36,035 nucleotides of DNA, from IMG/VR virus record IMGVR_UViG_3300028800_000214, positions 1-36,035 of that record; one strand, 5' to 3'. Positions 24,728 through 34,237 of this stretch are shown piece by piece (position 1 is the first letter of the stretch; every line of letters starts with the position of its first letter). Source of the stretch: a virus. Below the pieces are notes generated by a model. The model saw nothing but the letters and a program-made list of their open reading frames with translations, had not been told where the DNA came from and did not search any database. The position numbers were made by a program, and so were the translations under genes.

Positions 24728-24875
24728 GGCTGTAGCTCCTATCGTCTAAAGCTTTTTGCAGGTCCCTCTCTGACTGCGGCAAGCCGTCGTAGTCGAACAT
24801 CTGTTCGGCACTATAGAGGTCGCCGATGTAGATCGTCGAACGAGCGATGGACCAGTCCATCTTGTCGCCGTCCAT
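24651..24875 (-). CDS. Hypothetical protein with 3' end in the HNH insertion
   Basis: 74 residues, ATG at 24875 sharing bases with the upstream TGA. It begins MDGDKMDWSIARSTIYIGDL and contains SERDLQKALDD. The final 25 or so residues are Arg-rich and are encoded antisense to the end of the HNH gene, so the tail is probably new and the native protein ended differently. Last gene of the reverse operon, convergent with the nucleotidyltransferase and HNH genes. Confidence 0.6.
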   Translation of the reverse strand: MDGDKMDWSIARSTIYIGDLYSAEQMFDYDGLPQSERDLQKALDDRSYSPIEPGAGQRLRVRARRRVYGVLRDF

Positions 24876-25345
24876 CACACCTTCTCCTTCCACGACTTCG
24901 GCAACGGCCGTTGACGCAGGCCTTTCTTGTGACCCTCGTCGTCCTTGACGTCCTTGTGTTCCCATCCAACCGGGATACGCTGTCCGGGAGGCAAGCACCA
25001 GAGGTGGTACTTGTTCGAGGTATCGACGAGACGAGATTCGGCTGGGTAGAGCTCGATCGCTTCCACCTCAGGGCCGACGAGTTGGTTCTTGATGTCCTGG
25101 AACTCACGCCAGTCCCTGAAGATGACGTTACCGTCCCTGCGCCTGATGTTCAACTGGGTCCAGCCGGTAGGGTTCCTGCGGACCTCGACCTGGTAGGTTT
25201 CGTTGATCCAGACCTCGACATTCGCCTGATCTTCATCAATCCACTGGATGGCGCCGGCCTCGTCGAGACCGTATTGTTCCATGGTCACCTTGATGAGCTC
25301 ATGAGAGAGCGGCTTGAACGAAGTGGCTTTCTGGAGAGGCTGCAT
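24875..25345 (-). CDS. DUF7694-like phage protein
   Basis: 156 residues. MEQYGLDEAGAIQWIDEDQ and EVWINETYQVEVRR in the first half, and QDIKNQLVGPEVEAIELYPA followed by ESRLVDTSNKYHLW in the second, fit a family found widely in phages and prophages, of unknown function. One base separates it from the upstream gene, and it shares stop and start bases with the downstream one. Confidence 0.7.
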   Translation of the reverse strand: MQPLQKATSFKPLSHELIKVTMEQYGLDEAGAIQWIDEDQANVEVWINETYQVEVRRNPTGWTQLNIRRRDGNVIFRDWREFQDIKNQLVGPEVEAIELYPAESRLVDTSNKYHLWCLPPGQRIPVGWEHKDVKDDEGHKKGLRQRPLPKSWKEKV

Positions 25346-25346
25346 C

Positions 25347-25640
25347 TTACTTCTCGGCGGCGAGTTTGATGAGGTCGGCAAGATCGTTGAAATAGAGGGC
25401 GATCTCGTTCCACCCAGAAGAATGGCCACTGTCCCAGGCGATGCTGAAGGCCTTATCGAGGACCTTCTTAGGGAAGCTGATGACTCCATGGAATTCGAAC
25501 AGGTCCTTCTTGAACTGGTCGTATAGACGGTCGTTTTCGGCCTTGTAGGCCTCCCATACAGCTCGGTCCTTAGACCGAGGGGAGTACGGTAGCTTGTTCT
25601 CGTAAGCCTTGGCGTCAATCTGGTCAAAAATGTTCGTCAT
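25347..25640 (-). CDS. Conserved hypothetical protein
   Basis: 97 residues, ATG at 25640 with an AAGGAAGG ribosome-binding site. It starts MTNIFDQIDAKAYENKLPYS and has a C-terminal helix pair AFSIAWDSGHSSGWNEIALY and FNDLADLIKLA, resembling small phage proteins of unknown function. First gene of the reverse operon, reading away from the polymerase gene. Confidence 0.65.
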   Translation of the reverse strand: MTNIFDQIDAKAYENKLPYSPRSKDRAVWEAYKAENDRLYDQFKKDLFEFHGVISFPKKVLDKAFSIAWDSGHSSGWNEIALYFNDLADLIKLAAEK

Positions 25641-33027: not shown

Positions 33028-33349
33028 GAAAGCGGCCGTCGTCCGTCTCGGCAAGTACGGCACCGAGATGGGTGATCCCATGGACAACCTCTTCGAGGAG
33101 GCGTCAGAGATCATCCAGGCCGTCGGTAAGTACTACCGTTTCTCCCCTCCCCATGACGTCAATCCCCGGAACGGCAAGAACACGATCCAGAACATCGAGC
33201 AGGAGATCGGAGACCTGAACGTCATGGTCCGAATCCTGATCAAACGGAAAATCCTATCCAAGAAACGTATCGCCAAAGCCGAGCGCGACAAGATCGCCAA
33301 GCTGAAGCATAACTATGGGTACGACTTCAAGAAAGACAGGCACGTGTGA
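33002..33349 (+). CDS. MazG-like nucleotide pyrophosphohydrolase
   Basis: 115 residues from ATG at 33002. LFEEASEIIQAVGKYYRFSP and IEQEIGDLNVMVRILIKRK give the two acidic metal-binding helices of the all-alpha NTP pyrophosphatase fold. Basic termini. The third MazG-like gene of the window, not closely similar to the other two. Confidence 0.72.
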   Translation: MAKEKRKPRKAAVVRLGKYGTEMGDPMDNLFEEASEIIQAVGKYYRFSPPHDVNPRNGKNTIQNIEQEIGDLNVMVRILIKRKILSKKRIAKAERDKIAKLKHNYGYDFKKDRHV

Positions 33350-33633
33350 TGGGCATCCAGAACCTGTTGATCATCTTATATTTCCTGCTGAAAGCGGGAA
33401 TCATCGCCCTCGTCAACGCAATGTTGTTCATTGCCCTTGCTTTTGGGGCCGTATACGTCCTGGCTTTCCTGTGCACCCTCGCCTACGGCGTGGTCTTTTT
33501 AGTCGGGTGGGCCTGTGTACAGACCTTCAGGAAAGCATATATATTGGTGGCCGGGTTGGTGTCAACGGTAAACACGTCTGACTCTAAATCGGAAACTACG
33601 GGTTCGAATCCCGTACTCGGCGCCAACAACTAA
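33349..33633 (+). CDS. Membrane protein overlapping a tRNA gene
   Basis: 94 residues (or one more with GTG at 33346). Two to three hydrophobic segments: LLIILYFLLKAGIIALVNAM, then LFIALAFGAVYVLAFLCTLA and YGVVFLVGWACVQTF. From residue 67 on the frame runs through the tRNA at 33550-33625, so the last 28 residues are tRNA-derived. A holin is possible given the topology, but unproven. Confidence 0.55.
   Translation: MGIQNLLIILYFLLKAGIIALVNAMLFIALAFGAVYVLAFLCTLAYGVVFLVGWACVQTFRKAYILVAGLVSTVNTSDSKSETTGSNPVLGANN
33550..33625 (+). tRNA. tRNA with CUA anticodon (amber suppressor)
   Basis: A 76-base cloverleaf. Acceptor GCCGGGT pairs with ACTCGGC, including one G-T pair. D-stem is GTGT/ACAC. The anticodon stem TCTGA/TCGGA encloses the loop CTCTAAA with anticodon CTA at 33584-33586. 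T-arm is ACGGG/CCCGT around TTCGAAT, then G and encoded CCA. CUA reads UAG. The D-loop CAACGGTAA resembles tRNA-Gln, and one base change would restore the Gln CUG anticodon. The amino acid carried is not known. Confidence 0.88.
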
Positions 33634-33645
33634 GGAGAATGAACC

Positions 33646-33669
33646 ATGATGACCCACGACCACTTCTAG
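33646..33669 (+). other. Possible seven-codon leader ORF ending in TAG
   Basis: MMTHDHF then TAG, with an ideal AAGGAG at 33632-33637. It begins 20 bases after the amber tRNA. If TAG is read, the peptide extends by eight more residues to TGA at 33694-33696. It may be a leader that senses amber reading, or a chance ORF. Confidence 0.35.
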
Positions 33670-33742
33670 CTCCCCCGAGCTCCTCCTGTTCTCTGACAAT
33701 GGACTGTGAGTGAACCAACGAAAAAACAGGAAAGAGCAACCA

Positions 33743-34237
33743 ATGACAGATTCAACCAACGACAAAGAACGCCAAGCCACGCCTCACGCGACCCAGGACC
33801 TGGGAAAACGTGGGGCTTACACTTCACTCGAACTCCGCATCAAGGGGTTCACCCTGGCCCAGGAAGCCAGGATCATCCGCAGGTACGAGAGGCGGCTGGC
33901 CAAGGCCGCCCGCTACGTCCCTCTCCTGGGAGCCAAGCGCGAGAGCCTCTATCGGCATCGTAAGGACGTCGTCCAACCGGAAGCCAGGGCGACCTATCTC
34001 GCCTTCGGGTTCCTTCGTGGCATGCCGTACTCCTCGATCGAACAGAAGCGCTACACCGATCCGGACTGGGCCAAGATCGAGACGATGGTCAACCGGTACG
34101 GCGAAGGCGACTCGCGTGACCGCCTCCAGCGCTTCGCATCCTGGAAGGACTCGGCTCCGCCGCTGTCTGAGCACAGCGGCTTGCCGCGCGAGAAGAAACA
34201 GCGGGTGAGTAACGGACCGAAGCCTGTCGCCGCATAA
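33743..34237 (+). CDS. Hypothetical basic protein
   Basis: 164 residues from ATG at 33743, preceded by an AGGAAAG site; an in-frame GTG lies upstream at 33710. Begins MTDSTNDKERQATPHATQDL, then a strongly basic helical region (QEARIIRRYERRLAKAARYV) and a Pro-rich end. No family recognised. The charge suggests nucleic-acid binding. It ends 23 bases before a strong terminator. Confidence 0.55.
   Translation: MTDSTNDKERQATPHATQDLGKRGAYTSLELRIKGFTLAQEARIIRRYERRLAKAARYVPLLGAKRESLYRHRKDVVQPEARATYLAFGFLRGMPYSSIEQKRYTDPDWAKIETMVNRYGEGDSRDRLQRFASWKDSAPPLSEHSGLPREKKQRVSNGPKPVAA

Follow-up and report, generated by a model that had tools for sequence, protein, structure and literature searches.

The phage DNA analysed here (36,035 bases, the whole of a complete IMG/VR record, hereafter the window) carries an amber-decoding tRNA gene, and twenty bases downstream of it starts a short leader ORF that is interrupted by an in-frame UAG. 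We consider it likely that this mini-ORF, acting as a translational attenuator, is the target for which the tRNA serves as a dedicated amber suppressor. At the level of sequence, the association between leaders of this type and CUA tRNAs is strong and held up in a test on isolates; readthrough, stalling and the job of the output protein are what we infer. The features concerned are listed in Table 1.

Table 1. Features of the tRNA-leader region in the window
Feature	Coordinates	Strand	Basis
Amber-decoding tRNA gene, anticodon CUA at 33584-33586, encoded CCA	33550-33625	+	ARAGORN, Rfam, inspection by eye
Shine-Dalgarno (SD) AAGGAG of the leader, 8 bases upstream of its ATG	33632-33637	+	
Amber-gated leader ORF MMTHDHF-UAG-LPRAPPVL-UGA (final TGA at 33694-33696)	33646-33696	+	sequence
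In-frame amber codon of the leader	33667-33669	+	
Arg-Ala-Pro-Pro codons (arrest-type motif), read only on amber suppression	33676-33687	+	motif data, PMC12992588
Predicted masking helix, 5' arm (UCCUGU), within the codons for Pro-Pro and Val	33684-33689	+	prediction
3' arm of predicted masking helix, ACAGGA, containing the SD core AGGA (33728-33731) of the next gene	33726-33731	+	prediction
Gene presumed to be regulated; encodes a helical protein of 164 aa with homologues in DLP5 (DLP05_071) and behind amber-PP leaders of other phages	33743-34237	+	

The window derives from a phage of the T4 superfamily and is a fragment comprising a replication block, in which genes for a UvsW-like helicase, the late sigma factor 55, 47, 46, 45, 44, RegA, polymerase 43, UvsX and 41 were recognised. 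The CUA tRNA is preceded, at a distance of 1.0 kb, by a second tRNA, Arg(CCU). No relatives of the neighbouring genes were found in IMG/VR by protein patterns. Within the otherwise plus-strand replication block there is a minus-strand gene pair (24875-25640). A 94-aa membrane-type ORF on the plus strand (33349-33633) is TGATG-coupled to the preceding gene and runs stop-free across the entire tRNA gene; tRNA processing would strip the stop codon from its mRNA. Among isolates, the polymerases of the Sinorhizobium phages phiN3 and phiM12 are the nearest (44% identity). The closest isolates by polymerase (phiM12, L300; phiN3, L301; phiM19 and phiM7, L317 and L318) have ochre-decoding UUA tRNAs at one common site. 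In phiM12 and phiN3 clearly different tRNA bodies bear an identical anticodon, as though it were the anticodon that is kept and not the tRNA. No matching amber leader was found in phiM12.

The complete tRNA with encoded CCA and CUA anticodon described in the initial annotation was confirmed with both ARAGORN and Rfam. ARAGORN called it on the plus strand at the coordinates of Table 1 with the anticodon cta and the label "Pyl", which it owes to the anticodon alone, and the match to the Rfam tRNA family RF00005 scored 55.7 bits (E 1.5e-9), above the curated cut-off of 29. By eye, the acceptor stem has 7 bp (GCCGGGT/ACTCGGC, one G-U), and the anticodon arm consists of a 5-bp stem and a 7-base loop, CTCTAAA, with U33, CUA and A37. 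A 4-base variable region, the conserved T loop TTCGAAT, G73 and the encoded CCA complete the molecule. Its single irregularity is an additional D-arm base (GTGTCAACGGTAAACAC), a D-arm pattern that also occurs in the phage tRNA L100 (Trp); otherwise the cloverleaf can be drawn without strain. The unconstrained minimum free energy fold differs from the cloverleaf, as is common for unmodified tRNA. Judged by its anticodon, the tRNA is amber-decoding. An identity as tRNA-Pyl, which has a 6-bp anticodon stem and a very short D loop and variable region, was ruled out by the 5-bp anticodon stem, the ordinary D arm and the 4-base variable region, and no pylS was recognised among the annotated window genes.

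The window tRNA was matched best by two genes annotated as tRNA-Sup, in Tenacibaculum phage pT24 and in Stenotrophomonas phage DLP5, and by tRNA-Glu(CUC) of the Gordonia phages GMA2 and Boopy, so that nothing points to an origin from a glutamine tRNA (supE). The earlier comparison with supE-type glutamine suppressors proved not to be specific, CUG being just one among several anticodons that are one step from CUA, and the nearest sense tRNAs found were the Gordonia phage tRNA-Glu(CUC) rather than a tRNA-Gln. The window tRNA pairs G1-C72, C2-G71 and C3-G70, which differ from the identity pairs of E. coli tRNA-Gln.

TAG remains a normal stop codon in the window alongside this tRNA, as had been proposed: the estimate of about 15 TAG-ended genes compares with a count of 16 among the 56 plus-strand genes, 47 and 41 included. 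Standard-code ORFs cover 96% of the window, and general recoding of TAG was rejected, with coding coverage unchanged when TAG was read through; with no coverage gain and this share of TAG-ended genes, the fragment does not look like code 15. Fusions of a TAG-ended gene with the next gene were also rejected, since only 3 of 7 close neighbours are in frame, which is the chance level (1 in 3). Readthrough would extend genes 47 and 41 by 10 and 4 codons only, and no pattern was seen among the TAG-ended window genes in the next in-frame stop or in the frame of the next gene. The record lacks the late genes of this phage, and the code assignment covers the 36-kb fragment. Beyond the window, almost no TAG-specific coding gain was found among about 38 other phage loci with CUA tRNAs, and TAG remains a stop in ten CUA-tRNA phages of which either wide samples or the whole genome were examined; the clearest local gain from TAG readthrough was in G032. 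A separate case is L461, where an HNH homing endonuclease-like frame with two in-frame TAGs follows a CUA tRNA near 1530-1700, and this phage may really recode TAG. Broad late amber readthrough and an answer to host recoding, two of the roles first suggested for the tRNA, are thus not supported, given the lack of a coding gain and of an excess of in-frame neighbours and the apparently standard code of nearly all examined CUA-tRNA phage contigs. The suggestion of alternative extended proteins holds in spirit, but the evident target is the specific amber-interrupted leader beside the tRNA, which the first reading had not listed.

This leader, absent from the annotation, has an SD, an ATG, the TAG, a Pro-Pro pair near the second stop, an adjacent CUA tRNA and a gene further on. 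If the UAG is read, it encodes RAPP, the sequence of an arrest peptide, and stalling there is predicted. RAPP and RGPP cause robust arrest and RDPP partial arrest (PMC12992588), and the RAPP arrest resists EF-P (PMC12992588, PMC10951233). Among the leaders, these tested motifs are found in the window (RAPP), in DLP6 and L421 (RGPP) and in L194 (RDPP). The window leader is atypical in having VL after the Pro-Pro, which is placed two codons ahead of the stop, and a C after the UAG.

For most leaders, the next gene's SD is predicted to pair with sequence close to the leader end, and in the window with the Pro-Pro codons themselves. We predicted SD accessibility with the ribosome at the UAG and at the end of the Pro-Pro codons, and found a rise of the mean from 0.20 to 0.58 across 17 leaders, compared with a mean change of 0.05 for shuffled spacers. 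For the window, the predicted rise was from 0.05 to 0.85, which was reached in 0 of 200 or 2 of 100 shuffles in two runs. By prediction, the window leader therefore qualifies as a translational attenuator; the hairpin effect is weak or absent in L418, L448, DLP3 and Summit. The distance from the leader stop to the start of the next gene is mostly 46-71 bases, with 17 in L194 and 90 in BUCT-ZZ01. For the protein of the presumed regulated gene, AlphaFold2 gave a helical model with a mean pLDDT of 83, and a structure search with it returned no PDB match and two viral homologues only. Its homologues stand behind leaders in DLP5 (38%, 2e-20), L122, L491 and L457, and another set of leaders stands before a second, non-homologous protein group. 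Some of the output proteins have a C-terminal domain that weakly resembles the peptidyl-tRNA hydrolase PTH2, and the matches of these fused domains (PF01981, E 0.0032 to 0.09, below the cut-off; phrog_3668, 2.8e-7; PDB peptidyl-tRNA hydrolase 24bt, E 0.035) make the PTH2 assignment suggestive only. Weakly PTH2-like ORFs with a TAG in frame ahead were also noticed downstream of CUA tRNAs in L467 and L433.

The amber-PP leader pattern was first seen when the sequences behind CUA tRNAs were inspected and the window and DLP6 showed it alike. DLP6 belongs to the T4 superfamily, is similar in G+C and carries tRNA-Sup-CTA and tRNA-Arg-CCT. In members of the class, an SD is followed by an ATG, a short run of codons, the TAG, a second short run, Pro-Pro and a stop. 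With asterisks marking in-frame stops, the leaders read MNDMNGW*NHHAEFG*NICRGPP in DLP6, MK*VYKPP in DLP5 and ML*FKPP in RHph_I1_18, and MRNKQL*QVRGPP, MRNYS*IIRPP, MEKLVA*IRPP, MKEFNS*ITKPP and MT*IFKPP are among the others. Many of them carry KPP rather than the tested RxPP, and a basic residue before the Pro-Pro is common. Phage loci were scanned for an SD, ATG, up to 10 codons, a first stop, up to 12 codons and Pro-Pro near a second stop. In 1.09 Mb of CUA-tRNA loci the first stop was TAG in 22 matches (about 19 of them genuine, the 22 including two overlapping-start duplicates, in the window and L484, and at least one clear chance match, MTWP*PP on the window minus strand), TAA in one and TGA in none. 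In 0.81 Mb of comparable loci that lack a CUA tRNA, the corresponding numbers were one, one and zero. Counted by tRNA, 7 of 106 CUA tRNAs have a TAG-first short ORF with Pro-Pro in the 250 bases behind them, versus 4 of 1166 other tRNAs, the listed non-CUA cases being mostly the same leaders counted from a neighbouring tRNA; no TAA- or TGA-first short Pro-Pro ORFs were found within 250 bases downstream of CUA tRNAs. No amber leader was found in the whole genome of pT24 or in the 320 of 385 kb of XacN1 that were scanned.

Since the leader pattern had been found post hoc, isolates were searched with the downstream protein of the window alone, and the upstream sequence was inspected afterwards. 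This is the sole independent test of the motif. Six further isolate groups were retrieved by tblastn, five of which possess an amber-PP leader together with a CUA-type tRNA. The leaders are MKS*IRPPP in DSS3_MAL1, MK*VYKPP in Summit and DLP3, VIEPL*IKKPP (GTG start) in OLIVR1 and MGGDAS*INLKPP in BUCT-ZZ01. Because DLP3 and Summit are close relatives of DLP5, the independent groups number about three, namely DSS3_MAL1, OLIVR1 and BUCT-ZZ01. The CUA-type tRNA is annotated as tRNA-Glu in DLP3 and as tRNA-Val in OLIVR1, and it is absent from the annotation of BUCT-ZZ01. In the Agrobacterium phage OLIVR1 (L571, 1069-1145) it has an 8-base anticodon loop (CCUA) and stands directly before the leader. 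In the sixth group, phage NCTB, neither a clear leader nor a tRNA was found in the stretch read; an RGPP-encoding stretch in another frame lies upstream of the window-gene homologue (L569, upstream of 1486).

A second, unrelated family, widespread in phages, was found downstream of other CUA tRNAs. It is a protein of about 188 aa with the motif FHFNKKHL, and in all 80 retrieved loci an SD-led ATG is followed by an in-frame TAG no more than about ten codons on; in most of the 80, a CUA tRNA lies within 2.5 kb. Across all loci, the TAG precedes the conserved part in 72 of 76 distinct sequences, and the remaining four have another stop with an apparently normal start afterwards. In a sample drawn by tRNA only, the family was present in 12 of 39 records, and nine of the copies that could be resolved are clearly TAG-gated; apparently ungated copies occur in a few contigs of the CUA scan (L454, L483). 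RHph_I1_18 holds both this gate and an amber-PP leader. Its family member reads MSEFM*NESCREVIFHFNK, is unannotated and is followed by a tRNA annotated Pyl(cta); the copy lies at L418 near 1477-1720, and the family is also found in L337-L416. An uninterrupted homologue of the FHFNKKHL domain lies near a PTH2-type gene in Agrobacterium phage Atu_ph07 (L417), which is reported to carry an opal-decoding UCA tRNA (PMC6102473). Altogether, 41 of 120 CUA loci have a recognised gate within 2.5 kb (leader 21, FHFNKKHL family 21, both 1), a count that includes the window and DLP6, retains near-identical contigs and contains many incomplete loci.

We propose that, when RF1 terminates at the UAG, the hairpin would form and the next gene would stay off. 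When charged tRNA-CUA reads the UAG instead, the ribosome would proceed to R-A-P-P and dwell there, holding the hairpin open so that the next gene could be translated. Since RAPP and RGPP arrest ribosomes and the SD is predicted to be unmasked at the end of the Pro-Pro codons, UAG suppression should bring the ribosome to a gene-opening pause site, and with opening dependent on suppression, the downstream gene would thus be expressed in proportion to amber suppression. Stalling at KPP-stop in the other leaders is a further assumption. As a guess, the purpose would be to sense how suppressor activity fares against RF1, or to feed back on it. A widespread and hitherto undescribed regulatory principle of phages also appears likely, in which the own suppressor tRNA serves as a private key and a few genes, locked by a conserved early UAG, would be made only when suppression beats release factor 1; the lock would be either an arrest leader (the window, DLP5, Summit, DLP6, DSS3_MAL1, BUCT-ZZ01) or within the gene (the FHFNKKHL family, RHph_I1_18).

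The amber codon could also be read without any arrest, the terminating ribosome being moved to the second stop so that coupling opens the SD, with the Pro-Pro codons retained mainly because they base-pair (CCUCCU with AGGAGG) or slow termination. This fits the window, whose Pro codons themselves pair with the downstream SD, the use of CCTCCT for the Pro-Pro in the window, DLP6 and L194, and the many leaders with KPP, which is not a tested arrest motif. However, the Pro codons of most leaders are different ones (CCACCG, CCGCCC, CCACCC) and the SD is masked there by post-stop sequence, and therefore the amino acids, rather than the bases, appear to be conserved; a basic residue ahead of the Pro-Pro is also common, and we regard this explanation as unlikely. 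Far less probable still is that leaders and second family alike have a true stop in their UAG, followed by reinitiation, with a CUA tRNA nearby by coincidence. The codon after the TAG is indeed usually AUU, AUC or AUA in the FHFNKKHL family, and ungated copies begin with ATG at about that place, yet any stop would serve reinitiation, and TAG was found at all 80 family loci and in 22 of 23 leader matches. Moreover, AAC follows the TAG in RHph_I1_18, and the pattern is tied to CUA tRNAs.

Two further explanations would leave the leader incidental or deprive the tRNA of a role in reading amber. In the first, the tRNA would serve TAG-recoded late genes outside the 36-kb record, as in code 15; the record consists mainly of replication genes, and CUA tRNAs are carried by code-15 phages (PMC13037316). 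Against this stand the 16 TAG-ended genes of the window, the ten other CUA-tRNA phages without general TAG recoding, and terminase genes (eight records) and capsid genes (six records) of CUA-tRNA phages, all free of internal stops, which together make such a use extremely improbable. Phages often acquire tRNAs, and this one could be neutral, having come along with other tRNAs, or a bait for host tRNA-cutting defences. Its anticodon, loop, stems and CCA are nevertheless intact, and paired leaders with the corresponding stop recur in unrelated phages and beside unrelated tRNA bodies; we judge a neutral or decoy role very unlikely.

If the whole pattern is confirmed, the pairing of tRNA and leader would itself be a new kind. 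No description of an amber-gated phage leader was found in the open-access literature, subscription papers and preprints lying outside the scope of the search. The authors' explicit searches for targets of the suppressor tRNAs of Summit (PMC9022506) and XacN1 (PMC5852040) failed, and AP-J-162 is likewise recorded with a suppressor tRNA in a standard-code phage (PMC11242549). A specific target class would answer this recorded puzzle for a good share of standard-code phages, and suppressor tRNAs would have a regulatory function in addition to recoding. Where a UAG interrupts them, conserved genes and leaders of phages escape the gene callers. The leaders supply natural amber switches, as well as a route to ask what phages gain by sensing suppressor tRNA against RF1.

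Taken together, the window resembles the annotated phage amber suppressors (DLP5, Summit, DLP6, Xanthomonas XacN1, Sinorhizobium AP-J-162, Tenacibaculum pT24) in combining a CUA tRNA with the standard code as far as tested. Beyond what those annotations state, DLP5, Summit, DLP3 and DLP6 have leaders, whereas none was found in pT24 or the scanned part of XacN1. The code-15 crAss-like and jumbo phages likewise carry a CUA suppressor tRNA, whereas TAG is a common stop in the window. As in trp-type attenuation, a leader codon would report the availability of one charged tRNA; in contrast to it, the codon in the window is a stop, the tRNA is encoded by the phage, and the ribosome is predicted to read past the codon rather than to stall at it. 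The arrest-leader attenuators (ErmBL/ErmCL, SecM, TnaC, and the RAPP peptides ApdA, ApdP and ApcA) share with the window a short translated leader, an arrest-type motif near the C-terminus and a structure that masks the SD, but the trigger in the window would be UAG suppression by the tRNA next door rather than a drug, a metabolite or the state of secretion, a trigger that we did not find described. Compared with leader-peptide attenuation, the sole new feature would thus be the input, namely, nonsense suppression by a cognate phage tRNA.
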